Below, one piece after another: positions 15,190 through 33,478 of a stretch of 64,000 bases of DNA. This DNA comes from Pseudozobellia sp. WGM2 (lineage in GTDB: Bacteria; Bacteroidota; Bacteroidia; Flavobacteriales; Flavobacteriaceae). The stretch covers positions 186,001-250,000 of the forward strand of contig NZ_JADNYK010000001.1 in the NCBI RefSeq assembly GCF_017810075.1. Direction: 5' to 3'. The stretch's first letter is position 1. Each line of letters opens with the position of its first letter. The notes beneath the pieces were generated by a model, which was not told the DNA's origin, made no database searches, and worked only from the letters and a program-made list of their open reading frames with translations. A program made the translations under genes and the position numbers.

Positions 15190-17421
15190 TTAGAAATTGA
15201 CCGAGATTTTGCCACGAATATAAAATGGCGTTCCTGGTGTAAAATGAATCTCTTCGAAAGATTGAGCTTCATTGAACAATCTACTTTCAGTCGCAAATTG
15301 GGTTTCATTCCATTCGGTATCGAACAGATTCTCCACTATAAGACCTAAAGTCCAATTTTTGATTGAGTAATTTAAGTTCATATCGGTTACGAAATATCCT
15401 TCGGCTACAATTGAGTTGTCTTCGTTGGCCGGCCTATCATTAACATATCGATAGTTAATGCCACCAGAAAAGTTACTTAAATCTCTAAAGGATAATCCAG
15501 CGGAAGAGGTAAAATCAGGGGCTAATGGAATGTAATTTTCACCGTCTGGGTCTTCAATACTTCTAGCGTGAGTATAATTAACATCACCATTGGCATAAAG
15601 CCAATCGGTTATTTGATATCGTAAACCAAGATCAGCACCTAGCCTACGTGTTTTTCCACTGGGTTCAACAATACCGGCATCACCAACATAAACGAATTCT
15701 TGCTGAAGAAAAAGATACCATAATGCGGCGTTTACCACAAATCTATCGGTAGGTTTGATAATCGTACCTAAATCAGAGCCGAAGGCAAGGGGTAAAATTT
15801 CTTCACCTTGATTTGCGGTGACCACACGGCTGTCGTTGGAGTGAAAACCGATTCCCGATTTTGAAAACAATTGAACATTTGGTGAAGCTGCATAAATTAA
15901 GTTCAATTTTGGCCCTATAAAGAGTTTGGTTTCACTTTTATTATCATAAGCTTCGCTCAACAGATTTTCATAGTCGAATTTGAAGTAGTCAAGACGTAGG
16001 CCTGGATTTATGGTCCATTTGTTCTTTTTATAAGTTAAATCAAAAAAACCGTAAGCGTTCAACTCATCTACATTTCCGTAGGCCAATCTCTCCAATAATG
16101 TTTTTCTATCTTTTGTTCGAGATAATTGAACATCGTTCACATCATCATATCTGAAACCCATACCTGATTCATATTTGAGCTGAGAATCATGACCACCAGT
16201 ATGAATAGTACGTTGGTAACTAGTTTCTGCACCAATAATAGTTCGGTCTTCTTTTTGACGAATTTGATCGGCATTGACAGGGTCTTCTAAAAAGAAGGTG
16301 AAATTCGAAAAAAGTTCAAAATCGTATTTTGAAATATATGCCTTTGATTTTACACTTGAATGTTCATCGATTTGGTTGGTGTGATTGACCAAGAAATTCG
16401 TTCTGCTGGTATTTCCGCCTTCTGTATCATCAATGGCTCCGAAACGTCCAATTAAACCTTGTTCAATAGCTCGCTGTGGAATTTGCCCAGAAGCATCCCA
16501 CTTGCTTTGAAAGTGTGATAGGGTTAAAGTAAGATCTTGGTCGTCATAATTGCTGAAATTATAGCGGCCCATAAGGTTGATACGGTTGAAGTTTTGAGGT
16601 GAATCAAATGGCCCATCGGTAAGAACAAGTTCTGAGGCTACATAGGCGTTGCTATAATCACCCTCTGTAATCTTGAACATACCAAGTGTTCTCAACGTAT
16701 TAAACTGACCTGCTTCAAGTGAAACTAAATTGTTGTCGATTTTCTTTTTTGTTTTTAAATCGATATATCCAGCGGTATTGAAATTTCCTTTATTGGCATA
16801 ATAAGGTCCTTTTCCGAAATCTAGATTATCTATGGTTTCAGGAATTATAAAATGCATATCTGCATAACCTTGACCATGTGCGTGTGATACCATGTTTACC
16901 GGTAAACCATCAACATTAATGGCAATGTCGGTACCGTGATCAATATCAAAACCTCTCAAGAATATTTGTTCGGCCTTACCACCGCCAGCATGTTGCCCGA
17001 TTATTAAACCAGGAACTTTGCGGAGAATCTCTTGCGAAGATTTTACCGGGTTGGCTTTAACATCTACGTTTACGAAATTACTCAAGGCATTTACTTTTGA
17101 GACCAAAACGACCTGGTCTAAAGAAACGACAGAATCCTCTAGCAAAATTTTCACGGTGCTATCGAGTAAATCTTCGGTTATTGTCAGTTGATGATTCTTA
17201 AAACCAAGGCTATAAAAGTATATGACATCGCCTACTGAAACATCATCGAGTTCGAAATAGCCAGAGACGTTTGTATAGGTATAACCGCCAGTGGTTTTAT
17301 TGTAAACCCCGACCCCTTCGATTGCCACTTCCTTTTGTGAAAGAACAGTACCGTAAAGATCATGTGCCTCGGCAGTAGCGCACGATAAGATTAGAAATAA
17401 TAAAAAGTATAATTTTTTCAT
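15190..17421 (-). CDS. TonB-dependent outer-membrane receptor, probably for the linked peptide or its metal complex
   Basis: 743 residues. Signal peptide (MKKLYFLLF...AEA), then a carboxypeptidase-regulatory-like domain (about 22-95: YGTVLSQKEVAIEGVGVYNKTTGGY), a plug (about 115-215) containing LRKVPGLIIGQH, FLRGFDIDHGTDIAINVDG and a His-bearing stretch VSHAHGQGYADMHF, then the 22-strand barrel ending in aromatic FYIRGKISVNF. It is the last gene of a minus-strand series that contains nonribosomal peptide genes (18064-24027) and is closed by a terminator, so it is probably the uptake port for that product. His residues in the plug and a His-rich small protein next to it suggest metal-related cargo. 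A role unrelated to the peptide cannot be excluded from sequence alone. Confidence 0.88.
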   Translation of the reverse strand: MKKLYFLLFLILSCATAEAHDLYGTVLSQKEVAIEGVGVYNKTTGGYTYTNVSGYFELDDVSVGDVIYFYSLGFKNHQLTITEDLLDSTVKILLEDSVVSLDQVVLVSKVNALSNFVNVDVKANPVKSSQEILRKVPGLIIGQHAGGGKAEQIFLRGFDIDHGTDIAINVDGLPVNMVSHAHGQGYADMHFIIPETIDNLDFGKGPYYANKGNFNTAGYIDLKTKKKIDNNLVSLEAGQFNTLRTLGMFKITEGDYSNAYVASELVLTDGPFDSPQNFNRINLMGRYNFSNYDDQDLTLTLSHFQSKWDASGQIPQRAIEQGLIGRFGAIDDTEGGNTSRTNFLVNHTNQIDEHSSVKSKAYISKYDFELFSNFTFFLEDPVNADQIRQKEDRTIIGAETSYQRTIHTGGHDSQLKYESGMGFRYDDVNDVQLSRTKDRKTLLERLAYGNVDELNAYGFFDLTYKKNKWTINPGLRLDYFKFDYENLLSEAYDNKSETKLFIGPKLNLIYAASPNVQLFSKSGIGFHSNDSRVVTANQGEEILPLAFGSDLGTIIKPTDRFVVNAALWYLFLQQEFVYVGDAGIVEPSGKTRRLGADLGLRYQITDWLYANGDVNYTHARSIEDPDGENYIPLAPDFTSSAGLSFRDLSNFSGGINYRYVNDRPANEDNSIVAEGYFVTDMNLNYSIKNWTLGLIVENLFDTEWNETQFATESRLFNEAQSFEEIHFTPGTPFYIRGKISVNF

Positions 17422-17545: not shown

Positions 17546-17557
17546 TTTTAAAGTCAA

Positions 17558-18063: not shown

Positions 18064-21000
18064 TTATTTTTCTAATAAAGCAGTCAAAGTTTGTTCGATG
18101 TAAGATGCATATGACGCAATGGTCGTATGTTCAAAAACTTTGTTCAATGGAAAATTCATTTCTATCTCTTCATTAATTCTTGCGGTAACTCGAATGGCTG
18201 CCAAAGAATGCCCTCCTAGGGCTATAAAATCGTCGTGAACCCCTACTTTTTTCAGCTGTAACACTTCTTTCCAAATACCTTCAATTAGCTCCTCAATTTC
18301 GTTTCTAGGGGCGACGTAAGGCGTATCCATTTCTAATTGGGCACTCGACAGATTTTTTAACCCTGCCTTGTCCATTTTTCCATTTTTCGTCAGAGGAATT
18401 TCAGTTAAATGCTTGAACACCGAAGGAACCATATATGAGGGCAGTTCTTTGGCCAGTGCTATTTGAATTTCGTTTATAGATAAATCTGGGTTGCCCGTGT
18501 AATAGGCGACAAGCTTATTTGAGTTGATTTCTTCTTCATCGATTTCATTGTAACCAATTTCTTGAATAATTCTTTTGACTTCGATTTCATCTATTACTTC
18601 ATTGATTTCTTCAAGACTTTCGTTACGGGTTTTGTGCCCTAGGCGAACATCCCAGCTATACGGAAATGAATAATTGCTATAACCCAATTCTTTTTTATGA
18701 ACATAAATACCGACTTGGTTGATTAAGCAATTTGTCGAACGCCCAGTATCTGTAGGGCGTACCCATCCTGCTCTCTCTTTGAGAAATACGAGCATTTCTT
18801 CCAAACTTACATCACTGAATCTATAAAAGTCGACGAATTGAACCTTTTCAAACGTTTCATCATCATCGAACATCGAAGTGTCGAGAAGTTTTTTGACGGC
18901 ATCCGATTCTTGATGGTACAACTTTCTGGCTTCTAAAATAGTTTGGTCTATTTCGGTTGTGTCCAAATCATCATTCCAAAAAAGCTCTTCGGTCAATCTA
19001 GTTTCGAAAAATTGCCCTCTTGAAAGCCCTGTGACTATAAACGGAATGTTCTTCTCTAAAGCAATTTTAGTACTCAGGGTATAAATAGTTTTAAAGCATC
19101 CGTTACAAACATTTTTATGTCTGTGAAGGCTATCGACAAAAATTTCATTCATATGGGGTGTTTTGCCATACACATGGTCGACCCCTAAGCGAGTGACGAT
19201 TCTGTCGATATTTGCTTTAGCTTGTTCGGAAATATAGCCATTATCCATAGTGAAGGCCAATACCTTTAACCCCATATTTATCAGACGAGCCAGTACATAG
19301 GTGCTATCTTTACCGCCGCTCAATAACGATATGCAGTCATAGTTTACACTCTTGTCTCGTTTCGAGGATAATAGGCTTATCAATTGTTCGTCATTTTTGA
19401 AATACCGATGTGCCTTATCCTTATAGGTTTCGAAAGCTCGGCATAGATGACAAACGCCTTGGTCATCAAAGTCTGTACTGGGGTAGTTTGAAGGCAGGCC
19501 ACATTTGGTGCAGTTTACTACTTCTTCCTCGTGAATCGGTTGTTCGTTTTCTACCAAAACAACTGCACAGTTATCGATACCATCAAGTTGATTTAAAGTA
19601 GCTTCTATTTCCGATAGCTCGATTCTATGCCCACGGAGCTTGATCTGATCATCTATTCTGCCTAAGTACTCAAATTCCCCATCTTTATTCAAGCGTACCG
19701 AGTCTCCCGATTTGTATAGTTTTGAACCAGGATTATAAGGGTTATCTATGAATTTTTCCAATGTCATTTCTGAAGCCCCGATATAACCTTTGGCCAATCC
19801 GATGCCACCTAAATAGAGTTCACCAGAAACCCCACTAGGTACTAAATTCATATAATCGTCAAAAATATAGGATTGTATATTCTCAATAGGATGACCAATA
19901 GGTACCGAACTTTCTATATGCTTAGCTGGATCGAACTCAGAAGCAATACAACCTACAGTTGCTTCTGTAGGGCCATATTCATTGAATATTCTAAGTCTTT
20001 TTGAAAAGGATGCACTAATTTCTTGGGCAAGAGAAACCTTAAGGTCTTCACCACCCAAAATCATAGTATGTATGCTTGAGTCATCAAAAGTTTTTCCTTT
20101 CAATAATGATAAATGAGAGGGAGTTAACTTAATAGTGTTGACTTGATTATCTTCTACAACTCGAAGAAGAGTGGTGTCAGGCCCTAAACCACCCTCCTTG
20201 TAGATAATCATTCTACCACCATTTATAATGGGTAGAAACGTAGAGGTAATCGTAAGGTCGAATCCGATAGAAGTGAACAGCGCAAAAACTGAACTTTCAT
20301 CTACTTGGTAATAATTTTGAGCCCAGTTCAGATAGTTTGCCAGGCTCTTATTAGCAATCTTGACACCTTTAGGTTTGCCTGTACTACCGGAAGTATAAAG
20401 AATATAAGAGAGATCATCTTTATTGATATCGAGGTCTAAATTTTTTGATGATTCAGTATCGAGACTAGGTGCTATTTCATGTATGTTAATAATTTCGTTC
20501 GTGTCGATACTAACTTTTGACTGAAAATTTCTGTCAGTTACCATTAATGAGCTGTTCGAGTTTGAATAGATGTATTCAAGTCTTGCTCTAGGTTGATCCG
20601 AAGCTATGGGCACAAAAGCGGCCCCGGTTTTCAGAACTGCCAGAATAGCAATTATGTATTCTGGACTACGATTCATATGTATGGCTACTGTCGACTTATG
20701 ATCAATGTTTTTAGCCTTTAAATATCGTGCTAACCTATTCGCTTTTTTATTAAGGTTGGAATAGGTGAGTGTTTGTTCTTCAAACTGTATCGCTATACCG
20801 TTTGGTTTTTCAGAGGCCCATTTTTCAAACCGTTCTAAAACGGTTTTCTCGGGTTTGATAATTTCTTGATGAGAACCGATAAGATTCTGCTTTTCATCGG
20901 CACTTACAAGTTCAATCTCCTCTATGGGCTTATCAATATTATTTAAAAATGCATCGAGAAGCTTAAAAAAATGATTGGCTATGTCTACAGATTTTCTACC

Positions 21001-22218
21001 CTTCAAGAAAGTTTTTTTGATATCGAAAGCCAAGCGATAGTCTCCATTCTTTTGAAAATCATAAACATGACATCTAATGCTATGGGCACTGTCTATATGT
21101 TCGTTATGTACCCAATCGATTCTAGTAGGGTGGCCGTTGAAATCGGGGAAATCAGCAGTAATGAAATTGAGTAGGGCAGAGATATTTCTTTCCTTGACCG
21201 CACCGGTCATTCCAGGCCCCGCGTTTTTCAAAAAAGAATTACTTTCCACTTTTATGCGCTGCAGAAGTGTATTAAAAGTATCGTTATCTTCAATTTCTAT
21301 GGAGTAGGGGAGAACTTCTATAAAAAGACCCGCTGTTCTGTGGAACCTGCGCTCACTTCGATTGTGAGCCGGAGAACCAATGACTAAGCTTTTTTGGCCA
21401 CTGGTACGATAAAGAAAACTCAAGTAGAGAGTGGTGAAAATATTAAAGAGAGTTAAATCTTGTGTCCAACCTCTTACTTCCGGTTTATTTGCTAATTCTT
21501 TTAGTTTTTTGGTGCGTAAAGTACCGATTGATAATTCGATACGCTCAGCTTCGGTGGACAAAGCGTCATTTTTTTCTCCGTAGAATCTAAAATTTTGAAT
21601 GTCTTTTGAGACTTTGTTGGCCCAGTATTTTTTATAGGATTCGTTTATTTTGCTGTGCTGTACCTCTTGTTCATACTGCACGTAATCGCTAAAAGAGGCA
21701 GATTCCGCTGGAATGCTGTTTTTTTCTTGAAGTAAGTCGCCATATAGCGTAGCCATTCGATTGTACAAAATAGAAAAGGTCACTGCATCCGTTACCAAAT
21801 GATGTAGTTTGAAATACCATATATACCTGTTTTCACTTGTTTTCAAAAGACTACTTTCATAGACTTGCTTTGAGACGTTTAAAGGTTTAAGGGTTTTCTC
21901 TTTGATGTAAGAATGAATCTCATCTTTTGTTCGATGCCCAAAATCTAGAATCTTAAAATTTATAATGGAATTTTCGTTGATACTTTGGTGGGGCGTACCT
22001 TTTCTATCTATAAAAATAATTTTGAAAATATCATTCTCATTTACAAGTATTTGAAATGCTTTCTCAAAAGTTAATTCGTTTATAGTGCCATTTATATCAA
22101 ATGTGTAAACGACATCGTGCAACGGAACATTGGGATGCATTTGCTGCCCTGTCCACAAGGTCAATTGACTTTGAGTTAGGGGTAAGAAATTTTCAAATTG
22201 CGTTTTCATAGGGGGCAT
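18064..22218 (-). CDS. Nonribosomal peptide synthetase C-A-PCP with a PP-loop ATPase domain inserted in the A domain
   Basis: 1384 residues (a second ATG at 22209 is also possible). Condensation domain about 10-440, active site HHLVTDA (about 138-144, last Gly replaced by Ala). Adenylation domain from about 460: A3 YTSGSTGKPKG, A5 NEYGPTEA, A7 LYKSGD, A8 GRIDDQIKLRGHRIEL. After VVLVEN (about 890) about 340 residues intervene before the A9-A10 part resumes (LVAYYTG to NGKMDK, about 1233). The insert has two CxxC pairs (CTKC...CHLC, about 902-925), the PP-loop SGGKDS (about 967) and a further CxxC (VCNGC, about 1035), like N-acetyl-sugar amidotransferases (WbpG) and tRNA thiolases. PCP follows with LGGHSL (Ser about 1337). 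No epimerase or thioesterase. The substrate-pocket residues read by alignment to GrsA are DLTKIGEVGK, one change from the asparagine code. Confidence 0.93.
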   Translation of the reverse strand: MPPMKTQFENFLPLTQSQLTLWTGQQMHPNVPLHDVVYTFDINGTINELTFEKAFQILVNENDIFKIIFIDRKGTPHQSINENSIINFKILDFGHRTKDEIHSYIKEKTLKPLNVSKQVYESSLLKTSENRYIWYFKLHHLVTDAVTFSILYNRMATLYGDLLQEKNSIPAESASFSDYVQYEQEVQHSKINESYKKYWANKVSKDIQNFRFYGEKNDALSTEAERIELSIGTLRTKKLKELANKPEVRGWTQDLTLFNIFTTLYLSFLYRTSGQKSLVIGSPAHNRSERRFHRTAGLFIEVLPYSIEIEDNDTFNTLLQRIKVESNSFLKNAGPGMTGAVKERNISALLNFITADFPDFNGHPTRIDWVHNEHIDSAHSIRCHVYDFQKNGDYRLAFDIKKTFLKGRKSVDIANHFFKLLDAFLNNIDKPIEEIELVSADEKQNLIGSHQEIIKPEKTVLERFEKWASEKPNGIAIQFEEQTLTYSNLNKKANRLARYLKAKNIDHKSTVAIHMNRSPEYIIAILAVLKTGAAFVPIASDQPRARLEYIYSNSNSSLMVTDRNFQSKVSIDTNEIINIHEIAPSLDTESSKNLDLDINKDDLSYILYTSGSTGKPKGVKIANKSLANYLNWAQNYYQVDESSVFALFTSIGFDLTITSTFLPIINGGRMIIYKEGGLGPDTTLLRVVEDNQVNTIKLTPSHLSLLKGKTFDDSSIHTMILGGEDLKVSLAQEISASFSKRLRIFNEYGPTEATVGCIASEFDPAKHIESSVPIGHPIENIQSYIFDDYMNLVPSGVSGELYLGGIGLAKGYIGASEMTLEKFIDNPYNPGSKLYKSGDSVRLNKDGEFEYLGRIDDQIKLRGHRIELSEIEATLNQLDGIDNCAVVLVENEQPIHEEEVVNCTKCGLPSNYPSTDFDDQGVCHLCRAFETYKDKAHRYFKNDEQLISLLSSKRDKSVNYDCISLLSGGKDSTYVLARLINMGLKVLAFTMDNGYISEQAKANIDRIVTRLGVDHVYGKTPHMNEIFVDSLHRHKNVCNGCFKTIYTLSTKIALEKNIPFIVTGLSRGQFFETRLTEELFWNDDLDTTEIDQTILEARKLYHQESDAVKKLLDTSMFDDDETFEKVQFVDFYRFSDVSLEEMLVFLKERAGWVRPTDTGRSTNCLINQVGIYVHKKELGYSNYSFPYSWDVRLGHKTRNESLEEINEVIDEIEVKRIIQEIGYNEIDEEEINSNKLVAYYTGNPDLSINEIQIALAKELPSYMVPSVFKHLTEIPLTKNGKMDKAGLKNLSSAQLEMDTPYVAPRNEIEELIEGIWKEVLQLKKVGVHDDFIALGGHSLAAIRVTARINEEIEMNFPLNKVFEHTTIASYASYIEQTLTALLEK
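18491..19540 (-). other. Inserted PP-loop ATP pyrophosphatase (amidotransferase/thiolase-like) domain inside the A domain
   Basis: This is the segment of the synthetase that interrupts the adenylation domain between core motifs A8 and A10. Order: zinc-finger-like C-x2-C-x16-C-x2-C, PP-loop SGGKDST with the strand ISLL before it, FTMDNGY, a second CxxC about 68 residues after the PP-loop, and the VTGLSRGQ segment typical of the WbpG-type amidotransferases. Members of this fold activate a carbonyl oxygen with ATP and replace it by nitrogen or sulfur. The reading frame is continuous on both sides, so it is a true domain insertion and not an assembly error within the frame. Confidence 0.85.
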
Positions 22219-22231
22219 GCTTGTGGTTTGG

Positions 22232-22459
22232 TTATCTCGAAAGGTATTGCATGATATTTTTTATGGTCATGAAGTTTTCTATAGTCATATCTTCTGAAGG
22301 AATCTTTATATCAGCTTCGGTTTCAATGAAATTGATGAGGTTCATCATGCCCATAGAGTCTACGATTCCGCTACCTAACAAATCTTCATCATCATAAATT
22401 TTATCTAGGGGTTCGCTAGCTAGATTATTGATGATATATGATTCTATCTTATCTTTCAT
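22232..22459 (-). CDS. Free-standing acyl/peptidyl carrier protein
   Basis: 75 residues, a typical carrier-protein length. The phosphopantetheine attachment motif reads GIVDSMGMM (Ser about 35), followed by IETEADIKIPSEDMTIENF, the conserved helix II to III region of acyl carrier proteins. It overlaps the preceding adenylation gene by four bases (ATGA) and is followed after 13 bases by the C-A-PCP synthetase. The most direct reading is that the free-standing A domain loads this carrier to provide the first building block. The phosphopantetheinyl transferase at 30040-30744 would convert it to the holo form. Confidence 0.92.
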   Translation of the reverse strand: MKDKIESYIINNLASEPLDKIYDDEDLLGSGIVDSMGMMNLINFIETEADIKIPSEDMTIENFMTIKNIMQYLSR

Positions 22460-24027
22460 TTAGTGGTTTGGTCTAGAAGATTATTAATTTCTTTTCTATT
22501 GATTTTTCCGGAACTGGTTCTGGGCAGATCTGCGAAAACTTCTATTATTGTGGGTATGGCATAAAGTGGTAGGTGTTCTTTACAAAAATCACGAAGTTGA
22601 TGATTGTAGGTCTCAGCACCCTCTTGTAATTTGATGACAGCTGCTAATTCTTGTGCTTCTTTTTCTTTATCTAAAACGACCACAGCGACTTCTTCTACGT
22701 CTTCATGTTTTAAAAATGTATATTCCACTTCATCCAATTCGACTCTATGGCCTCGCAGTTTTATCTGTCTATCATTCCGACCTAAAAACAACAGTTCACC
22801 GTCTTGGTTTTCTTTGACCAGATCACCCGTTCGATAATAAATATGCTCATAGCCTTGAGCAATTTTAACTCTTTTAAAAGCCTTATCGGTAAGTTGTTCA
22901 TTATTCCAATACCCTTGCATTAAGGTGGCTGACCGAACGGCTAATTCGCCTATTTCACCTTTTTTCACTTCTTCTTGTCGATTGTCTAAAATTTTAAACT
23001 CAGTATCTGCCCAGACGTTACCGATAGGAACATTGGATTCAGCCGTAGGTAGCAGCTCAATGTTATAATAGGTGCATAAAATAAGTTCTGCTGGCCCATA
23101 AAGATTGGTGAATCTGGTCTCTGGCCAAAGTTGCATCAATGCTCGTAAATGCTTGGGTACAAATACCTCACCTGCAAAGAAAATCCACCTTAAAGCCCTA
23201 AAATCATGCTTCTCGATACGGCCACTGTTCAACAATTGAATTAACATAAGAGGCACTGAGTACCAAATACTAATTTTTTCATCGACTATCATAGCAGCGA
23301 GGCTTGTCGGCATTTTCAGATGAGCATCAGAAACGATTACGGTCGTTGCTTTTACTAAAGGAGCAACAAAATAGCCGAATGTAGAGGGGTCAAAATGAAG
23401 TGGTGCTGGGTTACCGAATATATCTTCGCTGGTTAAATCAAAGGTGTCTGCCATAATTTTTGCCAGACTCAATGCACTAGAATGTGTATGCATTATGCCT
23501 TTAGGTACTCCCGTAGAACCTGAAGTGTAAAGAATAAATGCCAGGTCACTGCCTAAGACATTTTTTTTGTTCGGTAATGTAGCAGAGTGGGAATAAACGA
23601 ACTGCCAAGAGACAGTTTTCGTCTCAAACGAAATGTCACTACCTATTATCGATATGACCGTAGTCTCTGTCTCCAAAACCTTATTTATTCTTCTATTTTG
23701 TAAAGGCGTTGTGACCAGATGGGAGACCCCGCAGTCGTTTAAAATTTTGGATACTCTCGAAATAGGGGCGAAAGGGTCGATTGGAACGTATGCGGCGCCC
23801 GATTTTAAAATGCCGTAAACTGCAATTGTGGTTTCAAGACAGCGATTCATATATATACCTATACGGTCACCTTTCTTAACACCATCATTAATTAGGTAAG
23901 CTGCTAGACGGTTTGATTTATTGTCAAGCTCTCGATAGGTAATTGAATCATTGAAACACCGAAAAGCCTGCTTGTTCGGTGTATCCGAAGCGGCTTTCTC
24001 TATTATTTGTTGCAAGGTATAAATCAA
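22456..24027 (-). CDS. Free-standing amino acid adenylation enzyme
   Basis: 523 residues, a complete single A domain: A3 YTSGSTGVPKG (about 160-170), A5 NLYGPAEL, A7 YYRTGD, A8 GRNDRQIKLRGHRVEL, A10 SSGKINRKE near the end, whose Lys is the catalytic residue. It lacks condensation and carrier domains; the carrier is the next gene, overlapping by four bases. Pocket residues aligned to GrsA read DPFYFALLCK, which resembles the pattern I recall for free-standing proline-activating enzymes of pyrrole pathways (DLLYLALVCK), but no acyl-CoA dehydrogenase for pyrrole formation is nearby. The start appears to be TTG at 24027; no in-frame ATG lies between it and the preceding stop. Confidence 0.9.
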   Translation of the reverse strand: MIYTLQQIIEKAASDTPNKQAFRCFNDSITYRELDNKSNRLAAYLINDGVKKGDRIGIYMNRCLETTIAVYGILKSGAAYVPIDPFAPISRVSKILNDCGVSHLVTTPLQNRRINKVLETETTVISIIGSDISFETKTVSWQFVYSHSATLPNKKNVLGSDLAFILYTSGSTGVPKGIMHTHSSALSLAKIMADTFDLTSEDIFGNPAPLHFDPSTFGYFVAPLVKATTVIVSDAHLKMPTSLAAMIVDEKISIWYSVPLMLIQLLNSGRIEKHDFRALRWIFFAGEVFVPKHLRALMQLWPETRFTNLYGPAELILCTYYNIELLPTAESNVPIGNVWADTEFKILDNRQEEVKKGEIGELAVRSATLMQGYWNNEQLTDKAFKRVKIAQGYEHIYYRTGDLVKENQDGELLFLGRNDRQIKLRGHRVELDEVEYTFLKHEDVEEVAVVVLDKEKEAQELAAVIKLQEGAETYNHQLRDFCKEHLPLYAIPTIIEVFADLPRTSSGKINRKEINNLLDQTTK

Positions 24028-24421
24028 ATCAGAAGGTAAGGTTTTTAATTATTGGTGTAAATAAAAACAATACCCTACCGGAAAGGTGTTGTCTTAATTT
24101 CATAGCATTGGTAAAGGTAGGTTTTGGTTTTTTTGTTTTCAAATGTGCAGTGGTGACATAATCCGATTAAACTTGTCGATAATCGAGAAAACCACTCATT
24201 AGACTGAATTTGACCTAATAATTGTTAATATTTATCGAATAATAACCAACCAGAACTCGTTGAAAATAGTCTTTATTGGCCTGACATAATTCTTCTAACA
24301 TCAAAAAAATAGCTTCAAATTTCGTCGCGCGAGCTGTTCAAGATATTTTTTTAACTCTAAAGAAATGTGATTGCCAGGGCATAAAAGATTTATTTCAAAA
24401 TTCTGTACCTTTTCAAACGCT
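24028..24421. other. Divergent control region between the two peptide operons
   Basis: 394 bases with no credible gene. It must hold the promoters of both divergent operons. I see a near-palindrome TCGATAATCGA at about 24176-24186 and an AT-rich dyad-like stretch around 24220-24250, candidate operator sites, but no clear TTG/TAnnTTTG promoter and no recognisable Fur or Zur box. Confidence 0.4.
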
Positions 24422-25672
24422 ATGAAAAAATTATTACTCTTATTACCATTACTCTTATTACCATTACTCACTTTTAGTCACCAGCCCAAACAAAGTCTAA
24501 TATACCTTAGAATATATGAGGAAACTGGGATAGAAGGTAGATTTGAGGTCAACGCCAATGAATTGATAAGTGTTTTTGGGTTAGATTATGGATTGAATCC
24601 GTCGATAGATGAAGTACGGCCCCATCAAAATCGAATTCAAGCCTATTTATTGGAGAATGCTGAATTTTCTTCCGAAAACGGAAATTTTCAAATTGTATTT
24701 ACCGGTGAAATAACCAAACTAAATACTGGGTTTGGAGACTTCATTAATTTTCACTTTAAGCTAGAACCGTCTGAAAACCTACCCGATAATCTAATTGTCG
24801 AATACACTGCCTTTACTCAAGAAGATCCATCTCACCGCTGTTTAATTGCAATGGAGTATAATTGGAAAGCCGGTTTAATAAACAATGAATCGATAGTTGC
24901 TCTATATTTAAGTAAAGACGAACCTAAAGGTACTATATCACTTACTGAAACTTCATTATGGAAAGGTTTTGTAGCTATGGTGAAGCAAGGAATTTGGCAT
25001 ATCTGGATCGGTATGGATCACATTCTATTCTTGCTAGCCTTGATTTTACCATCGGTTGTTCGAAGAAAAACAACCAAAATCAGAGGTGATGGTGCAGAGG
25101 TGGCCGATACAGGTTTTAGTATTCTAGGTTGGGAGCCCGTGCAGAAGTTCAAACCGGCCTTTATGTATATTTTGAAAATAGTGACTTTCTTTACTTTGGC
25201 CCATACCATTACGTTAAGCTTGGCGTCTTTGAACATAATTAACTTGCCGTCGAGAGTAGTTGAGTCTATTATCGCATTTTCGGTTGGCTTGGCCGCTTTT
25301 CACAACATTAGACCCATCTTTAAAGGAAAAGATTGGATTATAGCCTTTGTATTCGGATTGTTTCATGGCTTCGGATTCGCTAGCGTATTAGGCGAGTTAG
25401 GCTTTAAAGGGGAGTATCTATCGTTGTCTTTGGTGGGTTTTAACGTAGGGGTTGAAATAGGTCAAGTAGTAATTATAGCTCTGATATTTCCGATTTTGTA
25501 TTTGATTCGAAATCGTAAGTTGTATCCGAAATTACTGGTCGGGTTATCGGCATTATTGATATTTATTTCAATCTATTGGTTTATAGAAAGAGCCTTCGAT
25601 ATCGATTTGCCGTTAGATGAAATTGTGAATCGTAACCTCTACCCAATTGCGAGGTTCATTGGTTTGTTGTAA
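24422..25672 (+). CDS. HupE/UreJ-family membrane protein, probable metal permease
   Basis: About 416 residues from the ATG at 24422. A signal peptide made of LLLLP repeats is followed by an exported domain of about 165 residues, and then about six membrane helices. The membrane part carries the HupE/UreJ histidine motifs IWHIWIGMDHILF (about 197-209), TLAHTITLSL and LFHGFGFASVLGELG. HupE/UreJ proteins are nickel or cobalt permeases in hydrogenase and urease systems; in Bacteroidota they are frequently found with TonB receptors. Here it begins the plus-strand operon, 24 bases ahead of a peptide synthetase gene, which ties metal handling to the peptide. The metal and direction are not shown by the sequence. 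Confidence 0.85.
   Translation: MKKLLLLLPLLLLPLLTFSHQPKQSLIYLRIYEETGIEGRFEVNANELISVFGLDYGLNPSIDEVRPHQNRIQAYLLENAEFSSENGNFQIVFTGEITKLNTGFGDFINFHFKLEPSENLPDNLIVEYTAFTQEDPSHRCLIAMEYNWKAGLINNESIVALYLSKDEPKGTISLTETSLWKGFVAMVKQGIWHIWIGMDHILFLLALILPSVVRRKTTKIRGDGAEVADTGFSILGWEPVQKFKPAFMYILKIVTFFTLAHTITLSLASLNIINLPSRVVESIIAFSVGLAAFHNIRPIFKGKDWIIAFVFGLFHGFGFASVLGELGFKGEYLSLSLVGFNVGVEIGQVVIIALIFPILYLIRNRKLYPKLLVGLSALLIFISIYWFIERAFDIDLPLDEIVNRNLYPIARFIGLL
24434..24463 (+). repeat. Exact 15-bp tandem duplication in a signal peptide
   Basis: TTACTCTTATTACCA occurs twice without a gap (24434-24448, 24449-24463) with six bases of a third copy after it, encoding LLLLP LLLLP LL in the signal sequence of the HupE-like protein. 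Changes in copy number keep the reading frame. Confidence 0.9.
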
Positions 25673-25696
25673 ATTAAGTTTTAACCAGATATCCTT

Positions 25697-28612
25697 TTGG
25701 AAAATAAAGCAGGAAATAGTTCCCTTTTAAACAGGTGGAAGAATAGAGATAAGGATAAGAACTTAATTTCTGTTATTCCAAAAGCACCTGAAGATGTTGA
25801 TATACCCTTATCGAGAGGTCAGCAACGAATATGGTTTTTACAGCAATTATATCCTGATAATCCTTTTTACAACTATTCTGAGCTAATCTGTTTTGAAGGA
25901 AACCTGAATGTAGAATACCTTAAAGCGTCATTGAACAGAATTTTTCAAGATCACGAAATTCTGCGGTCTTTCTATCCAATGGTAAATGGTAATCCGGTTC
26001 TTCGAATTTCACATAAGCTGCCTGAAATACAGGACACTGATTTGTCAGGTTTCGAAGAAGAGTCTGCACAGTCGAAGCTCGATCAATTATTGACGAAGCA
26101 ATCACGTACTGTTTTCGATTTGTCGTCACCAGGGCTTTTAAAAATTTCATTGATTAGAACAAATGCTGATAAATATGTTCTATTCTTTACCATGCACCAT
26201 ATTATTGTTGATGAATGGTCAATAGGTATTCTAAAGCAACATTTGGCTTCTCACTATAAAACGCTTTCAAAAGGCAATGAGTTGCAGGTCTCTAATGCCG
26301 AAACTCAATATCGAGATTATGCTTATTGGCAGAGTAAGCAATCGATCAAGTCAGATGAACTCGCCTATTGGAAAAATACACTTTCTGGTGAGCTACCTGT
26401 TCTAGATATGCAGACGGACCAAAAGAGAAAGGCAAGTCCTCTTTTTAACGGGGGCCAGATTACTAGAAAACTTTCTTCTGAATTATCTTCTGATGTACTT
26501 GGGCTGGCAAAAAAAATGGAAACTACGCCCTTCATTTTTTTATTATCGGTGTACTATATTCTGTTAAAACGTTACACGGGGCAAGATGATATTTTAATTG
26601 GCACACCGATATCGAACAGAAGTACAAAATCTTTAGAAAATATCTTTGGGTTTTTTATCGACACCATAGTTCTGCGCAATCATATTGATAGTTCACTATC
26701 TATAAAACAGCTTGTTCAGCATATTAAAAAAAATACTTTAGAGGCCTTTGCGCATAAAAATGTGCCTTTTGATGTTTTGGTCAAAGAATTAAAAGTCGAC
26801 CGGTCTTTGAGCATAAACCCTTTTTTTCAGATTATGTTTCTATACCATCCACAAGAAGAAGTTCCCACCTTTGGTGATGAGGTTCTTATATCTGATGAAA
26901 CGGAATTTGATACCAAGGTGGCCAAGTTTGATTTGACATTGTCGGTTTCTGAGAAAGATGGCCAATTGTCCTTGACATTTGAGTATGATTCGGATCTCTA
27001 CTTTGAAACGACAATCGTTAGAATGCTTGAACATTACGAATTGCTTTTAAGAGGTGTTCTAAACGATTCGAATAGTACGGTTAAAGAACTGCCCATGTTG
27101 ACCGATATTGAAAAGTCGATTTTTTATGATACTACCTACGGTGGTGAGAACATATTTTCTTCTTATCGGGCCGTTCATCGTATCATAGATGATATAGGCA
27201 AAAGGTTTCCATCAAAAATTGCGGTAACCTATAAAAATGAATCGATAACCTATGAAGAACTGAATCATAGGGCCGATAAAATCGCTCAAATAATATTTAA
27301 CTCAACATCTAGGAAAAATGAAATAATTGGTCTCTGCCTTGATCGCTCGATAGATATGATTGTAGGTCTTTTGGGTATTTTAAAAGCAGGCTGTGCTTAC
27401 CTGCCTATAGACCCCAATTATCCTTTAGAGCGTTTGAATTTTGTACTTGAAGATGCACAATGTAATTGTTTGGTTTCAGATTCTTCCCTTAGTCCGGTCT
27501 TCGAAGGGCAAGAAAAGATATTGATTTATTTAGATGAACTTTTAGGTGAAGATTCGAAAATATCCGATGTTGATCTTCCAGAAGTATCAAGAGATGATTT
27601 GGCCTATGTTATCTATACCTCGGGCAGTAGTGGTCAACCTAAGGGCGTGCCAATTTCACATGATAATATTATAAACTCTACGGCGGGTAGGTTAAGTTTT
27701 TACCCTGAAAATCCAGAAGCATTTTTATTGATGTCTTCCATTTCGTTCGATAGTTCTAAAGCAGGAATATTTTGGACCTTATGCACCGGAGGAAATCTTA
27801 TCGTCACTGAAAATCGAATCGAGCAAGATATTTCTCAAATTGAGAATATTATCGAAACAAACGGGGTGACCCACACCTTGATGTTGCCCACGTTATACGA
27901 CTTGGTATTACAACATGCTACACCTAGCAAAATTGCAAGTTTAAATACGGTCATAGTGGCTGGTGAAGCCTGCAATGCAAGCATGTGCAATAGACATTTC
28001 ACGATTACTGCAGAGATTAATACCAAATTATATAATGAGTATGGCCCTACAGAGGCCACTGTTTGGTGCACGGCCTTTGAAGTAAAGTCAGATACTATTT
28101 CGACAGTGATACCTATTGGGAAACCTGTGGCAAGTGCAGCAATCTATTTGGTAGATAAGAATTTGAATCTCGTTCCGTTTGGTGCTGTCGGTGAAATATA
28201 TGTCTCAGGCCCGGGATTGGCCAAAGGCTATATCAACCGACCAGAACTTTCTAAAGAAGCTTTTATCGATAATCCCTTTGAAACCAATGGTAGTTCGAAA
28301 CTTTATAAAACAGGTGATCTAGGAAGGTATCGTTCAGATGGTTGTATAGAGTTTTTGGGCAGGGTAGACCAACAAATCAAACTTAGGGGGTATAGAATAG
28401 AATTGGAAGAGGTGGAGAAGGCAATATCTTTAAATAATGGTATAACCGGAGTGGTTGCCTTTGTGGAGGAAGTTAAAGCTTCTGAAAAAGTGAAAAATAC
28501 AGTTGATTATAATGATCCAGAGGCGTTTTCAAATTTTTTAAAAAAATCACTTACAAAGAAAGAATTGAACGAGTTATTGGCAAGTGTTGAAAAACTAAAT
28601 GTTGAAGCTTAA
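25697..28612 (+). CDS. Nonribosomal peptide synthetase C-A protein lacking the end of its A domain
   Basis: 971 residues from a TTG start (the in-frame stop at 25682 leaves no ATG). Condensation domain about 30-480, active site MHHIIVDEW (about 165-173). Adenylation domain from about 500: A3 YTSGSSGQPKG, A5 NEYGPTEA, A7 LYKTGD, A8 GRVDQQIKLRGYRIEL. The frame then stops after a helical tail (KKSLTKKELNELLASVEKL), before A9-A10; those motifs, with the essential A10 Lys, are on the next gene, 35 bases downstream. Pocket residues aligned to GrsA read D S A L I A E V W, with the final Lys on the next protein; I cannot assign a substrate to this code. It would extend the peptide started by the minus-strand genes. 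Confidence 0.92.
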   Translation: MENKAGNSSLLNRWKNRDKDKNLISVIPKAPEDVDIPLSRGQQRIWFLQQLYPDNPFYNYSELICFEGNLNVEYLKASLNRIFQDHEILRSFYPMVNGNPVLRISHKLPEIQDTDLSGFEEESAQSKLDQLLTKQSRTVFDLSSPGLLKISLIRTNADKYVLFFTMHHIIVDEWSIGILKQHLASHYKTLSKGNELQVSNAETQYRDYAYWQSKQSIKSDELAYWKNTLSGELPVLDMQTDQKRKASPLFNGGQITRKLSSELSSDVLGLAKKMETTPFIFLLSVYYILLKRYTGQDDILIGTPISNRSTKSLENIFGFFIDTIVLRNHIDSSLSIKQLVQHIKKNTLEAFAHKNVPFDVLVKELKVDRSLSINPFFQIMFLYHPQEEVPTFGDEVLISDETEFDTKVAKFDLTLSVSEKDGQLSLTFEYDSDLYFETTIVRMLEHYELLLRGVLNDSNSTVKELPMLTDIEKSIFYDTTYGGENIFSSYRAVHRIIDDIGKRFPSKIAVTYKNESITYEELNHRADKIAQIIFNSTSRKNEIIGLCLDRSIDMIVGLLGILKAGCAYLPIDPNYPLERLNFVLEDAQCNCLVSDSSLSPVFEGQEKILIYLDELLGEDSKISDVDLPEVSRDDLAYVIYTSGSSGQPKGVPISHDNIINSTAGRLSFYPENPEAFLLMSSISFDSSKAGIFWTLCTGGNLIVTENRIEQDISQIENIIETNGVTHTLMLPTLYDLVLQHATPSKIASLNTVIVAGEACNASMCNRHFTITAEINTKLYNEYGPTEATVWCTAFEVKSDTISTVIPIGKPVASAAIYLVDKNLNLVPFGAVGEIYVSGPGLAKGYINRPELSKEAFIDNPFETNGSSKLYKTGDLGRYRSDGCIEFLGRVDQQIKLRGYRIELEEVEKAISLNNGITGVVAFVEEVKASEKVKNTVDYNDPEAFSNFLKKSLTKKELNELLASVEKLNVEA

Positions 28613-28647
28613 ATACGTTTAAAGGCCGTATAGAAGAGAGAAGAAAA

Positions 28648-30030
28648 ATGTTAGTCGAAAATAATATAGAAAATCGAATCCGAAGGCTTTCTGAAGAGGA
28701 GCGTAAACTACTCATGTACAAAGCTGAGCAGCGAATTGCTGAAAAATCGGAAGCGGCAAAGCCAAGCGACTCAAAAAGGTTGATTGCTTATATCACTGCC
28801 TATAATACTGTTGATATAGTTGCGCTAAAGCAATCATTACGCAAAAAAATGCCCGAATATATGGTTCCCTCACATATGATCAAGGTAGACAGTTTTCCTA
28901 GGCTTCCCAATGGAAAAATTGATAAGCGGGCCCTTCAAAATGGAAACTATTTTAGTGAAGAAGAAAAACGAGATTCTAAAGACATACAACTTCCAAAGAA
29001 CGAAGTTGAAAATGAACTGCTTACAATTTGGAAAGATATTCTTGGTATCGATGAGATTAGTACAACAGATAATTTCTTTGAAATAGGAGGTGACTCCATT
29101 TTAAGTATACAGGTGATTGCGAAGGCTAGGGCTTCTGGTATGCCCTTGACCCCAAAACAGCTATTTGAATATCAGAATATCTCAGAACTCGCCCGTTTTG
29201 TAACGTCAGAAACTGACAGGTCTCAGGATGTTATGGCTAATTCTAGTTTTAAGCACTTGGTTGCGATACGCACAAAAGGAAACAAGCCTCCCATATTTTG
29301 TCTTCATAGCGGGGGTACCCATTTTTTCTTTTATAATCTTTTCGCAAAGTATTTACAAGAGAATAGGCCGGTATACGCGCTACAGGCCTCACCGCATGAA
29401 GGTAATCTTGTATTACATGAAAGTGTTACTCAGATGGCTGAAGATTTTATTTCCGAAATCAAGGAGGTTTACCCTAAAGGACCATATCATTTTATCTCTT
29501 ATTGTTATAACACGGCTATTGGCCTTGAAGTCGTGAGGCTTTTGGAGAAAGAGTCGGAATCTGCGAATTTAATTATAGCAGATACCATGGCCGATTATTT
29601 AAGTTTGTTCGCCGCTTCAAGAACCCCAGTTAGGGCAGCGGCTTTTCTAGATAGATTTAAATCGAGTCCGATTAAGACGGTTTCGGGTTTACTTAGAGGT
29701 AAAGTTGTTACACCAATCAAAGAGAAGCTTAAAAATTTGGGAGCTTCCGGTAGCAAGAAAAAGGTTCAGCTTCTGCATCATAATCACATCAAAGTTTATC
29801 GATCTTACAACTGGCAGCCTGTAAAGAGTACCATAAATCTATTATTGACATCAAAAAAGAATATTGAATTCAATGATAGCATTGTCGATTCTTGGCAAAA
29901 TTTATCTGATAGTGGAGTAGAGGTGCACCAGACTAAGGGGCATCATAATAGTTTGTTTTTGCAGTCTACCGTAAATGAAACCGCAAAGAATGTTGATAGT
30001 ATTATGGCCAAGTTTGAAAAGAAACTATAA
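28648..30030 (+). CDS. Nonribosomal peptide synthetase: A-domain C-terminal piece, PCP, thioesterase
   Basis: 460 residues. N-terminal helix RRLSEEERKLL (about 7-20), then the missing end of the adenylation domain (LIAYITA to PNGKIDKRAL, about 47-95), a carrier domain with GGDSILSI (Ser about 150), and a thioesterase from about 200. In the thioesterase the nucleophile elbow expected as GxSxG reads ISYCYNT (Cys about 286), so the nucleophile is probably Cys; an Asp lies in IADTMADY and the catalytic His in KGHHNS (about 432). It would supply the A10 lysine to the preceding protein in trans and release the product. Separate from it by 35 bases with an AGAAGAGAGAAG leader, so this is not a simple frameshift. 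Confidence 0.9.
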   Translation: MLVENNIENRIRRLSEEERKLLMYKAEQRIAEKSEAAKPSDSKRLIAYITAYNTVDIVALKQSLRKKMPEYMVPSHMIKVDSFPRLPNGKIDKRALQNGNYFSEEEKRDSKDIQLPKNEVENELLTIWKDILGIDEISTTDNFFEIGGDSILSIQVIAKARASGMPLTPKQLFEYQNISELARFVTSETDRSQDVMANSSFKHLVAIRTKGNKPPIFCLHSGGTHFFFYNLFAKYLQENRPVYALQASPHEGNLVLHESVTQMAEDFISEIKEVYPKGPYHFISYCYNTAIGLEVVRLLEKESESANLIIADTMADYLSLFAASRTPVRAAAFLDRFKSSPIKTVSGLLRGKVVTPIKEKLKNLGASGSKKKVQLLHHNHIKVYRSYNWQPVKSTINLLLTSKKNIEFNDSIVDSWQNLSDSGVEVHQTKGHHNSLFLQSTVNETAKNVDSIMAKFEKKL

Positions 30031-30039
30031 CTTTTTCCA

Positions 30040-30744
30040 ATGAAACTTCCCGAAAACGAGGTGCATATTTGGTATTTTGATGTAGAGGAATTTGAAAAAG
30101 ACTTAGATTTTTATAATAATTATCTTTCGACACAAGAACTTTTAAGATCACAGCGGTTCAAATTCGAAAAAGATAGGATACTAAATGTTCTTGCCAGAAG
30201 TTCGCTGAGAATATTATCTGGTCAGTATTTAGGCTGTGAGCCAGAAAAGATAAAAATTGCTTACGAAGAATTCGATAAGCCATATCTTATAGATTACCCA
30301 GATTTTAAGTTTAATGTCTCACATTCAGGTCAGTACGTAGCTTTAGCCTTCGTTAAGTATTATACATGTGGAGTTGACATCGAACGGATAAAGAATGATT
30401 TCGATGTGCTCGAAATTGCCGATAATTTCTTTTCGCCTTCAGAAATCGAACAGCTTCATAATGTTTCGAAAAATCAACTATTCATTGCCTTTTACCGATT
30501 ATGGACGAGAAAGGAATCTTTCATAAAAGCTAAGGGTAGTGGGCTCTCGTTTCCTTTATCCTCTTTTTCTGTTTCATTGGATAAAAATGCTCACTTACTT
30601 TCTACAGACTGGGATTCAGACGAAAAAGAACAATGGTCTATGACTTCTTTTGAACCTGCCCCTGGTTATCAAGGAGCTCTTTCCGTACAGGGTACAGTGA
30701 AAAAGGTAATTAGGAGGACTTGGAAAGGTGTTCAAGACCTATAG
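30040..30744 (+). CDS. 4'-phosphopantetheinyl transferase, Sfp type
   Basis: 234 residues. The three conserved blocks of Sfp-type enzymes are present: KPYL...FNVSHSGQYVALAF (about 85-110), the magnesium-binding GVDIERI (about 120-126), and FYRLWTRKESFIKAKGSGL (about 150-170, the WxxKES block). It transfers phosphopantetheine from CoA to the serine of carrier domains. It begins nine bases after the thioesterase gene and closes the plus-strand peptide operon, so its natural clients are the three carrier units of this locus (in the genes at 22232, 18064 and 28648). Confidence 0.93.
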   Translation: MKLPENEVHIWYFDVEEFEKDLDFYNNYLSTQELLRSQRFKFEKDRILNVLARSSLRILSGQYLGCEPEKIKIAYEEFDKPYLIDYPDFKFNVSHSGQYVALAFVKYYTCGVDIERIKNDFDVLEIADNFFSPSEIEQLHNVSKNQLFIAFYRLWTRKESFIKAKGSGLSFPLSSFSVSLDKNAHLLSTDWDSDEKEQWSMTSFEPAPGYQGALSVQGTVKKVIRRTWKGVQDL

Positions 30745-30751
30745 TAAACCC

Positions 30752-32056
30752 TTATTCCACAATGAACTTAAGCCCTCCGGTTGCGATTATCGAACTGAAC
30801 GTGGTGTCACGGTCATAGTTGTAAAATTTAAAGTCGATACTTTTTAATCCGATTTTTGACACCCGGAGTTTGGTAAAAATATCAGTGTAAGAAATTCCCA
30901 GCCCATATTGATTGGCCTTGTATCGGGAAAGGTCATAATCAGAAGTGTAAAAAATTGAAGATGAAAAATGTTGTTCATGGCCGGCGAAATAATCAGAGTC
31001 GGTTTGCCTATAGTAGCGATAAGAGGGGTAAAGTGTAAATTTATCGGATAGTTTTATGGGTATCTCAACACTGGCCGTATGGGAAGATATTCCCCAATCA
31101 TCAACATAATAGCGATAATAAGAGCGTACCGAAATGGTGGAACTCAGAAAATAATTTAGGCGGCCACCTAAGGCGATTTTGAATCGACTATCTGGTAATC
31201 GTTCAACGTCATCGGCCAACTGAAAATTTTCAACGAAAGCATCTGAAATATCTTGAAAATAGACCCGCTGAAAGGGAGTGGACAATAGTCCCTGCTGTTG
31301 AATAACATCTACAGAAATAAGGCCTTGAAGATTTTTATGCAGAATTTGTGATAGTCCCAAACCAACGGAATAAGAGTTTCTGTTGCTATTATCAAGTTCG
31401 GTGAAATTAGGGGCATAGGCCGTATTTCCGGTAATTTCGCTACTTCTGAACTCACCGTTACCATTTTTGGTAAAGGGCCTCAGTTCGATGGGGTAAATAA
31501 TTTTCCATTTATCTAAATAAACATTTGCGTTCAAGTTTAACTCAGTGTTTTTTTCATTAAAAAGCTTCGCATAACTTCCCCCAAAACCAAAAGAGAAATA
31601 ATCGTATTCATTTGAAACCGATAGGCGGGCAGACCATATATTATTTCTATCGTCTGAATTGTGGGTATAGGTTCCTGTAAAGTTAACCCAAGTATCGGAT
31701 CTTGAAGCTCCCGTGGTAGCGATAAAGGGGTTTCCGTCGGTGTTGCTATCAAAAGGGTTTACATTACTCGAAGAGGCAGACGTGTACGCCGATATTCCTG
31801 CATCAACGGTCAAAATATCGTCATCGTTCAGGGGAATTGAAACAATTACCGTAGCCGTGGCATCAGTTAATTCTTCGGTGCCCCGGCCACCTGTGACGGC
31901 GGCATTATCACCCTCTTGTGAATAGTAACTAGAAAGAAAATCGATTTCTGAACTTTCCAGTACACGTTGTTTGTAATCTTGATTTGTGTCTTGTGCATAG
32001 GTGGTCAAGACCATGAACAACAGTGTAGGCACCCATAAAACAGTAGTTTTTTTCAT
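30752..32056 (-). CDS. DUF3570-family outer-membrane-type protein
   Basis: 434 residues with a signal peptide ending TYAQ. The remainder is rich in alternating aromatic/polar strands ending in an aromatic residue, as expected for an outer-membrane beta-barrel, and matches my knowledge of DUF3570 proteins (early EIDFLSSYYSQEGDNAAVTGGRG segment). It is the last gene of a three-gene set with a DUF4266 lipoprotein and an ApbE flavin transferase; these three families recur together in Bacteroidota and Proteobacteria. No experimental role is known to me. It converges with the phosphopantetheinyl transferase gene with seven bases between stops. Confidence 0.82.
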   Translation of the reverse strand: MKKTTVLWVPTLLFMVLTTYAQDTNQDYKQRVLESSEIDFLSSYYSQEGDNAAVTGGRGTEELTDATATVIVSIPLNDDDILTVDAGISAYTSASSSNVNPFDSNTDGNPFIATTGASRSDTWVNFTGTYTHNSDDRNNIWSARLSVSNEYDYFSFGFGGSYAKLFNEKNTELNLNANVYLDKWKIIYPIELRPFTKNGNGEFRSSEITGNTAYAPNFTELDNSNRNSYSVGLGLSQILHKNLQGLISVDVIQQQGLLSTPFQRVYFQDISDAFVENFQLADDVERLPDSRFKIALGGRLNYFLSSTISVRSYYRYYVDDWGISSHTASVEIPIKLSDKFTLYPSYRYYRQTDSDYFAGHEQHFSSSIFYTSDYDLSRYKANQYGLGISYTDIFTKLRVSKIGLKSIDFKFYNYDRDTTFSSIIATGGLKFIVE

Positions 32057-32083
32057 AATCAGGGGATATCGTTTTAGTCGTGA

Positions 32084-32296
32084 TCAATTGCAACCGCAGC
32101 CTCCTCCGGTTTTTCCTCCGTTTGCGCCCACGGCCGCCTCTCGGTACGAATACATAGTATTAACATTTCGGTCTAGTTTTTTTTGCGTTAGCGACATATC
32201 TGGATCATTTATGTTCACTTTTTGATATTCTTTAACGGTTACGCAGCTCATCAAAGAGTAGCCTACGGCCAGAATTAATAAAAATCGATTTATCAT
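32084..32296 (-). CDS. DUF4266-family small lipoprotein with Cys/Gly-rich tail
   Basis: 70 residues. Lipoprotein signal with lipobox SLMSCVTV (Cys about 18), then VKEYQKVNINDPDM, a short helical middle, and a C-terminal tail GGKTGGGCGCN. The family is DUF4266. It overlaps the ApbE gene by four bases (ATGA), so the two are translationally coupled. The mature protein would be about 53 residues, lipid-anchored, with two Cys at the extreme C-terminus in a glycine context, which suggests metal or redox-cofactor binding or a covalent modification; this is inference. Confidence 0.82.
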   Translation of the reverse strand: MINRFLLILAVGYSLMSCVTVKEYQKVNINDPDMSLTQKKLDRNVNTMYSYREAAVGANGGKTGGGCGCN

Positions 32297-33273
32297 AAAT
32301 TTTCTATTTCAATGTGTTTCGATGTAGAAATTTGTCCCTTTTCGTCAATTATTATGCATTCCACTTTTGGTATTTGGTTGATTCTGTCAATTCCGACATC
32401 TTTCCCCATAACAAAGACTGCCGTTGCAAGCGCATCGGCCAATTCGCCGCTAGGGGCGAAAATGGTTACACTTGAGATTCCGAAAGAGGGGTAGCCAGTT
32501 CTAGGATCAATAATATGGCAATAACGCTTACCGTTCAAGATGAGGTACTTCTCGTAGTTCCCTGAAGTTACGACGGCATTATTGTTTAACGGTAATAGGG
32601 CGAAAGTCTTGTTTTTGTTCAACGGGTTGGTAATAGCGACTTGCCAAGGTTGGCCATTAGGCTGTACGCCCCAAGAATTCATGTCGCCAGAGGCATTTAT
32701 TATACCGGCACTTACGCCCTTAGACATGAGTAAAGCCTTTGCTTTATCGGCCGCATAACCTTTGCCGATGGCACCAAAACCAATTTTCATCCCCTCCAAT
32801 TTTAGAAAGATTGAACTGGTTGCTGAGTCTAGAACAATATTGTGGTATCCGACTTTTTCTACGGAGGCTTTTATTAGAGATGGATCGGGCATTTGTTGCA
32901 TGCTTCCATCAAACTTCCAAATCTTGTCCATAGAAGCGTAACTGATGTCAAAAGCACCATCGGTCAAGTTTGAAATTTGGTTACATCTTTTAATAAGGCC
33001 GAAAAGCTCAGGGTCGACTTGAACAGGTGACACGCCCGCATTTTTATTTATCGAAGAGGTTTGTGATTTGTAATTCCAAGAAGAAATTAGGTTTTCAATT
33101 CTTGAAATTTCCGTTACGGCCATGTCAATATACTCATGACCGGAAACCGAATCGCTAGCTACGACCGTTATATCAAAACGGCTGCCCATAAGTTTTAATG
33201 TTCGTGAATAGGAGTTTTGACTCCAAACGGAAAGGGAGGATAATAAGAATAGTAGGAGGAAGCCTCTATACAC
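32293..33273 (-). CDS. apbE: ApbE-type FAD:protein FMN transferase
   Basis: 326 residues, exported by a signal peptide ending WSQ rather than a lipobox. Family motifs: LKLMGSRFDITV (about 27-38), ISRIENLIS, the GFGAIGKGYAADKAK segment (about 168-182), NASGDMNSWG (about 195-204) and IDPRTGYPS (about 255-263) with the AxATAVFVMG region of the metal site. ApbE proteins attach FMN through phosphodiester bonds to Thr or Ser of client proteins in the periplasm. No client with the usual S/T-G-A-T type motif is obvious in this window; the coupled DUF4266 lipoprotein and DUF3570 protein are the natural partners to test. Confidence 0.9.
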   Translation of the reverse strand: MYRGFLLLFLLSSLSVWSQNSYSRTLKLMGSRFDITVVASDSVSGHEYIDMAVTEISRIENLISSWNYKSQTSSINKNAGVSPVQVDPELFGLIKRCNQISNLTDGAFDISYASMDKIWKFDGSMQQMPDPSLIKASVEKVGYHNIVLDSATSSIFLKLEGMKIGFGAIGKGYAADKAKALLMSKGVSAGIINASGDMNSWGVQPNGQPWQVAITNPLNKNKTFALLPLNNNAVVTSGNYEKYLILNGKRYCHIIDPRTGYPSFGISSVTIFAPSGELADALATAVFVMGKDVGIDRINQIPKVECIIIDEKGQISTSKHIEIENL

Positions 33274-33410
33274 TGAAATCTGATTTTGAAGCTGCGTTAA
33301 AAGCGGACTACAGTAAAGATATAAAGTTAAATTTTATATTCAGATTCGGTGGATGCGAGAAATAGAAATAATATGAAAGTTATCGGTTTATAATTTTGGC
33401 TAAAAGATAA

Positions 33411-33456: not shown

Positions 33457-33478
33457 GAAATGAACTAACCAACTATAT

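Follow-up and report, generated by a model that had tools for sequence, protein, structure and literature searches.

In the window, i.e., the whole 64,000-nucleotide stretch of Pseudozobellia sp. WGM2 under analysis, the adenylation (A) domain of one non-ribosomal peptide synthetase (NRPS) is divided between two consecutive genes, the core motifs A1-A8 being carried by the first protein and A9-A10 by the second. This pair is most likely a working two-polypeptide A domain, left after the loss of a methyltransferase (MT) gene from a three-gene cassette in which the MT stood between the two halves, hereafter A(N) and A(C). Operation of the domain by two proteins is supported by analogy with corallorazine biosynthesis; we infer that the split domain is active, that helices at its two edges dock and that the MT was lost in the lineage of the window.

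The first protein (971 aa, 25697..28612, plus strand, TTG start codon) has Condensation and AMP-binding matches, i.e., it carries a condensation (C) domain followed by motifs A1-A8. The A8 motif, QIKLRGYRIELEEVE, is followed by a tail of about 45 residues (28475..28609, plus strand) containing the helix NFLKKSLTKKELNELLASVEKL, and then by a TAA stop codon (28610-28612). The spacer (28613..28647, plus strand) is 35 nt long and corresponds to the position of the MT gene in relatives. The second gene (28648..30030, plus strand) starts with an ATG at 28648 and encodes a protein of 460 aa, in which a head (28648..28767, plus strand) with the helix NIENRIRRLSEEERKLLMYKAEQRI precedes A9 (MPEYMVP), A10 (LPNGKID) with the catalytic Lys, a peptidyl carrier protein (PCP) domain with GGDS and a thioesterase (TE). 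Tail and head are homologous in all split relatives. Summed over both proteins, the core motifs A1-A10 of an NRPS adenylation domain are complete, including the A10 Lys. The layout is that of a split A domain, i.e., A1-A8 and A9-A10 lie on consecutive open reading frames (ORFs), the second of which is joined to a T domain. It is not that of an interrupted (A-M-A) domain, since the window has no guest between A8 and A9. An earlier note, made from the letters of the window alone, had described the end of the first protein after A8, a proper stop, a 35-base spacer and a new ATG; this description and its coordinates are right. The nucleophile elbow of the TE in the second protein is FISYCYN, Cys replacing the usual Ser; relatives have AYCFN or YYCYS.

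Among the first 299 genomes of the family, 49 gave a match passing the chosen cut-off, of which some do not represent this cluster. The loci compared are the 20-kb loci from those matches, 80 loci of named genomes found via the adjoining HupE gene, and two later loci. The A domain is plainly fused, with no insert, in about 35 genomes (e.g., Zobellia, Pricia, Maribacter, Saprospiraceae). It is split without an MT in the window, in its congener G227, in Euzebyella marina and E. saccharophila, in Cytophaga sp. FL35 and in Poritiphilus flavus. A separate MT gene stands exactly between the two halves in 17 genomes, belonging to Bacteroidota and, for two of them, to Pseudomonadota. These include Algibacter luteus, Hyunsoonleella flava, Agaribacillus and metagenome-assembled genomes (MAGs) of Cyclobacteriaceae, of Sneathiellales and of a gammaproteobacterium; the MT gene usually overlaps both halves or sits within 25 nt of each. 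The Krumholzibacteriota MAG of locus L132 has a 2551-aa protein ending in A(N), tail and MT, the next ORF encoding head, A(C), PCP and TE. Lastly, a related Pseudozobellia, distinct from the window, has a single ORF of 1453 aa in which both edge helices are retained. No single-ORF A-MT-A member of this family was found among the loci examined. Saprospiraceae ORFs of 1870-1890 aa were considered as such an ancestor and rejected, as they correspond to C-A-PCP-C-PCP-TE without MT. Another split point of the same module is seen in locus L048 (G150, 12222-16162), where one ORF encodes the C domain and another A-PCP-TE.

The earlier note had supposed that an inserted domain may once have been present at the break, and had proposed a comparison with orthologues for a fused version or one bearing a PP-loop, i.e., the guest of the other synthetase of the window. 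The supposition fits the relatives in so far as a guest is concerned; this guest was likeliest a guanidinoacetate N-methyltransferase (GAMT)-like MT and not a PP-loop, and in relatives it usually has a gene of its own between the halves, instead of forming a domain within one protein. The comparison with orthologues did yield the plainly fused forms; what occupies the slot of relatives is the MT gene.

The slot MT gene encodes about 262 aa, with 63-71% identity within the first eight members aligned. It matches the GAMT structure 3orh (E 1e-26) over the core that binds S-adenosylmethionine (SAM), and has no more than a weak methyltransferase match in Pfam and NCBIfam. The likeness to GAMT (PDB 3orh, 1xcj) extends over about 136 residues of this core. 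Unlike GAMT, the slot gene has longer N- and C-terminal parts and, in the loci seen, always belongs to this NRPS cluster.

Remnants of the MT are present in the slot of two to three genomes. The gap of Algibacter mikhailovii (232 nt) contains MT codons 1-55 and 228-261, and that of the MAG of locus L073 contains MT codons 2-73 and 195-261 (both by tblastn); the middle part, with the catalytic core, is gone in both. G231 is a weaker case, i.e., ~33 N-terminal MT codons seen by eye in a shifted frame of a 90-nt gap. In the window genome the MT has no match anywhere at E≤1, and nothing recognisable as an MT or PP-loop relic is present in the 35-nt spacer. Wider MT searches gave one weak match in 396 genomes at the order level and two in 345 at the phylum level. 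The MT and C-A(N) distances are correlated (r 0.85; partial r 0.74 given HupE), so that, in most cases, the MT accompanies this A domain. In genome G842 (locus L151, 7552-8370), a GAMT-like gene directly follows the PP-loop synthetase and is not in the A slot; the MT can thus also act from elsewhere, or move.

When read via motif anchors, the substrate pocket has the residues D-S-A-M-(I/M)-A-E-V-W in nearly every member from Bacteroidota, whether split, split with MT or fused, with one or two substitutions in some of them. From this near-identity, the substrate is probably the same across architectures. As a speculation, a substrate with a guanidino or amidine group would go well with the acidic pocket residue and the GAMT-like partner.

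Whether from Bacteroidota or Pseudomonadota, every split form has one helix in the tail of its first protein (LL...LS.EEI.ELL.SVE.L) and another in the head of its second (I..RI..LS.EER.LL..K). Neither was found in the plainly fused forms. It is on this distribution that the short helices pointed out by the earlier note at both edges can be upheld. Being common to all split forms, the edges are old and have been kept. This distribution fits docking, and the helices probably hold the halves together. In the A domain of the Pseudozobellia counterpart, AlphaFold places helices at both edges (pLDDT about 62-83). A second tail helix (LS.EEK.YLL.QL) is present in most MT-bearing Flavobacteriaceae and missing from the window clade. 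It is not simply an MT dock, since the MT-bearing loci L106, L141 and L142 also do without it. Poritiphilus, which is split without MT, retains it.

These observations can be assembled in the following mechanism. The first protein would supply the C domain followed by the large subdomain of the A domain, as far as the A8 hinge, and the second one the small lid subdomain (A9, A10 and catalytic Lys), already joined to PCP and TE. The edge helices would keep the halves paired, the lid closing for adenylation and turning for thiolation. The ancestral cassette would have been A(N), methyltransferase, A(C), i.e., with the GAMT-like gene in the A8-A9 gap. Deletion of this gene would then have taken place in the ancestor of the clade to which the window belongs and, in the related Pseudozobellia, the two halves would later have been joined into one gene, both helices being kept.

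The tree of C-A(N) groups the window and G227 with Pseudozobellia (SH-aLRT 97). These three then join other MT-less split forms (92, 92), and the plainly fused Zobellia comes next (99). The fused gene of Pseudozobellia is thus nested among split ones and has both helices; its single ORF is best read as a re-fusion of split halves, with the helices as a scar. By parsimony, the fused or split state changes at least 13 times over the tree, and the starred branches alone force 8 changes for the label «fused».

Several results weigh against a split A domain that docks through its edges and has lost its MT. Some forks of the C-A(N) tree are left open, and A domains are subject to recombination. Plain fusion in several Saprospiraceae means that the root may have been either fused or split. 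No member of the window's own clade has an MT or a relic of it. The overall confidence of the AlphaFold models is low (mean 59-63, pTM 0.37-0.48), and they give no usable helix-helix geometry; docking is therefore what we infer and not what a model displays.

The converse order of events would be fission first, an MT gene entering the gap later in some lineages, so that the window would represent an older two-gene state that never had an MT. It is in line with the absence of MT from the window clade and with the 35-bp spacer, whose lack of any relic means that the split may predate any MT in the lineage of the window. It is also in line with the tails of this clade, devoid of the second helix of most MT-bearing relatives, and with the possibility of an MT outside the slot, as after the PP-loop synthetase of G842 (L151). 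On the contrary, the same slot holds an MT in distant phyla, once fused to the first half, and loss is the direction observed in the fossils. Moreover, the correlation between the distances of MT and those of C-A(N) is strong, and Poritiphilus, an MT-less split form, has the second tail helix. Fission before any MT thus appears rather unlikely, and loss of the MT in the window clade is favoured over its never having been there, because the shared edges occur with an MT in distant phyla.

It is improbable that the first protein adenylates alone, or that the A(C) piece is merely a linker, i.e., that no A domain is reconstituted in trans. A domains without their lid can sometimes show residual partial reactions, and this would agree with such a view. 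Against it, A9 and the A10 Lys are kept on the second protein in all split relatives. In the corallorazine system, Crz1.2 alone gave no exchange, i.e., no turnover by the first protein on its own, and nearly full exchange was obtained with Crz1.2 plus Crz2 (PMC11342130).

The break recurs in the congener G227 (about 90% identity), where the spacer is 36 nt long, vs. 35 nt in the window, so that the relative frame of the two genes is not conserved. A programmed frameshift or a stop readthrough, joining the two ORFs into one protein, could be imagined for two genes so close together and in different frames. It is very improbable: besides the 35 and 36 nt of the congeners, spacers of 4, 15 and 23 nt occur elsewhere with no common relative frame, and the gap can hold a whole gene. 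The frame of the second gene is open upstream to 28606; the break could thus have come from an indel at that point, and relatives are needed for the decision. The same split is found in the congener and in the other genera (both Euzebyella, Cytophaga sp. FL35 and Poritiphilus), and dN/dS between the window and G227 is low (C-A 0.19, A-PCP-TE 0.18, tail 0.27, head 0.17), i.e., purifying selection acts on both genes; the break is thus due neither to chance nor to an assembly error. That the break stems from faulty sequencing or assembly, or from a mutation that recently inactivated a single fused gene, is hardly credible even though one missing base near 28606 would suffice to join both genes, since the split recurs with differing spacers, both halves are under selection and the edge helices are common to all other split forms. 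Sequencing error, which the earlier note had named as a possible refutation, is ruled out by the congener and the other genera.

The two-protein A domain of the window can be compared with known systems. As in Crz1/Crz2 of Corallococcus, it is cut after A8, A9-A10 begin the next protein together with a T domain and, in the relatives of the window locus, the junction likewise involves a methyltransferase. Unlike in the window, the first protein of Crz ends in a fused N-methyltransferase, which is of the kind usual in interrupted domains. The first protein of the window has no MT and stops 45 residues after A8, and the relatives have a separate GAMT-like gene. Only the L132 MAG has the Crz layout, but with a GAMT-like domain. 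The cluster is also another one, and the release domain is TE here and TD in Crz. The interrupted A-M-A domains TioS, KtzH and ColG have their insertion between A8 and A9 (reviewed in PMC11355689). The relatives of the window share with them the insertion point and a SAM methyltransferase as guest; however, the guest of TioS, KtzH and ColG lies inside one polypeptide, whereas here the guest either has a gene separate from that of its host or has disappeared.

A wider reading, offered tentatively and with somewhat more doubt than belief, would regard this A domain as a three-part exchangeable device. It would consist of helix-matched halves and of a free-standing GAMT-like MT that docks between them as a removable insert, lost and re-fused several times; the window would then represent the apo state of an interrupted A domain in trans.

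The C-A gene lies 24 nt downstream of a gene for a HupE/UreJ_2 membrane protein (24371..25672, plus strand), which adjoins it in every relative examined within the family. The A(C)-PCP-TE gene is followed after 9 nt by an Sfp/HetI-type phosphopantetheinyl transferase (30040..30744, plus strand). On the minus strand are found a stand-alone, uninterrupted adenylation protein of 523 aa (22456..24027), the other synthetase, C-A-(PP-loop)-A-PCP, of 1384 aa (18064..22218), and a TonB-dependent receptor (15190..17421) that is part of the conserved cluster. The WbuX-like PP-loop domain of this synthetase (about 18523-19512, minus strand) matches the PP-loop N-acetyl sugar amidotransferases (TIGR03573) and is inserted at the A8-A9 junction, as the earlier note had read. 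Its view of this junction as a hot spot also holds, with a PP-loop in one A domain and an MT slot in the relatives of the other. Unlike the MT, the PP-loop guest lies inside one polypeptide, and it is unrelated to the methyltransferase of the second slot. Synthetases of ~1040 aa related to the PP-loop one (L043, L050, L051, L052, L058, L063 and others) have no room for a PP-loop.

The core of the cluster consists of HupE/UreJ_2, the stand-alone A protein and the PP-loop-interrupted synthetase, to which the TonB receptor is added in Bacteroidota (window 15190-30744, loci L068-L142). Many relatives add a PigA/RedW-like prolyl-PCP dehydrogenase and an ornithine cyclodeaminase-like gene. Besides Bacteroidota, the cluster is found in Cyanobacteria, Pseudomonadota, Gemmatimonadota, Krumholzibacteriota and other groups, and it has the appearance of a metal-linked pathway for a proline/pyrrole peptide. 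Next to it in the window (30752-33817) lie DUF3570, ApbE and a small 112-aa protein, a trio that accompanies the cluster in Pseudozobellia and Euzebyella as well.

The insertion of an MT at A8-A9 is textbook knowledge (PMC11355689, PMC8949500), and a split A domain at this junction has been known since 2024 (corallorazine, PMC11342130). As far as the literature was searched, the following are new: (i) a free-standing GAMT-like guest gene; (ii) its fossils in the slot; (iii) edge helices conserved over several phyla; (iv) a re-fused gene with a scar. Nothing relevant was found in the literature on HupE-linked NRPS clusters or on GAMT-like or PP-loop inserts of A domains. The usual explanation of interrupted A domains is that a tailoring domain was inserted at A8-A9. 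To our knowledge, the intermediate states of such an interruption are hardly known. The present cluster offers most of the states with a near-identical pocket, i.e., a fused gene with or without a scar, a gene pair alone or with a broken MT, a three-gene form, and a form in which A and MT are fused but the lid is separate. Side by side, these states make the order of events testable, and the natural split points with their helices are on offer for rebuilding A domains in trans.

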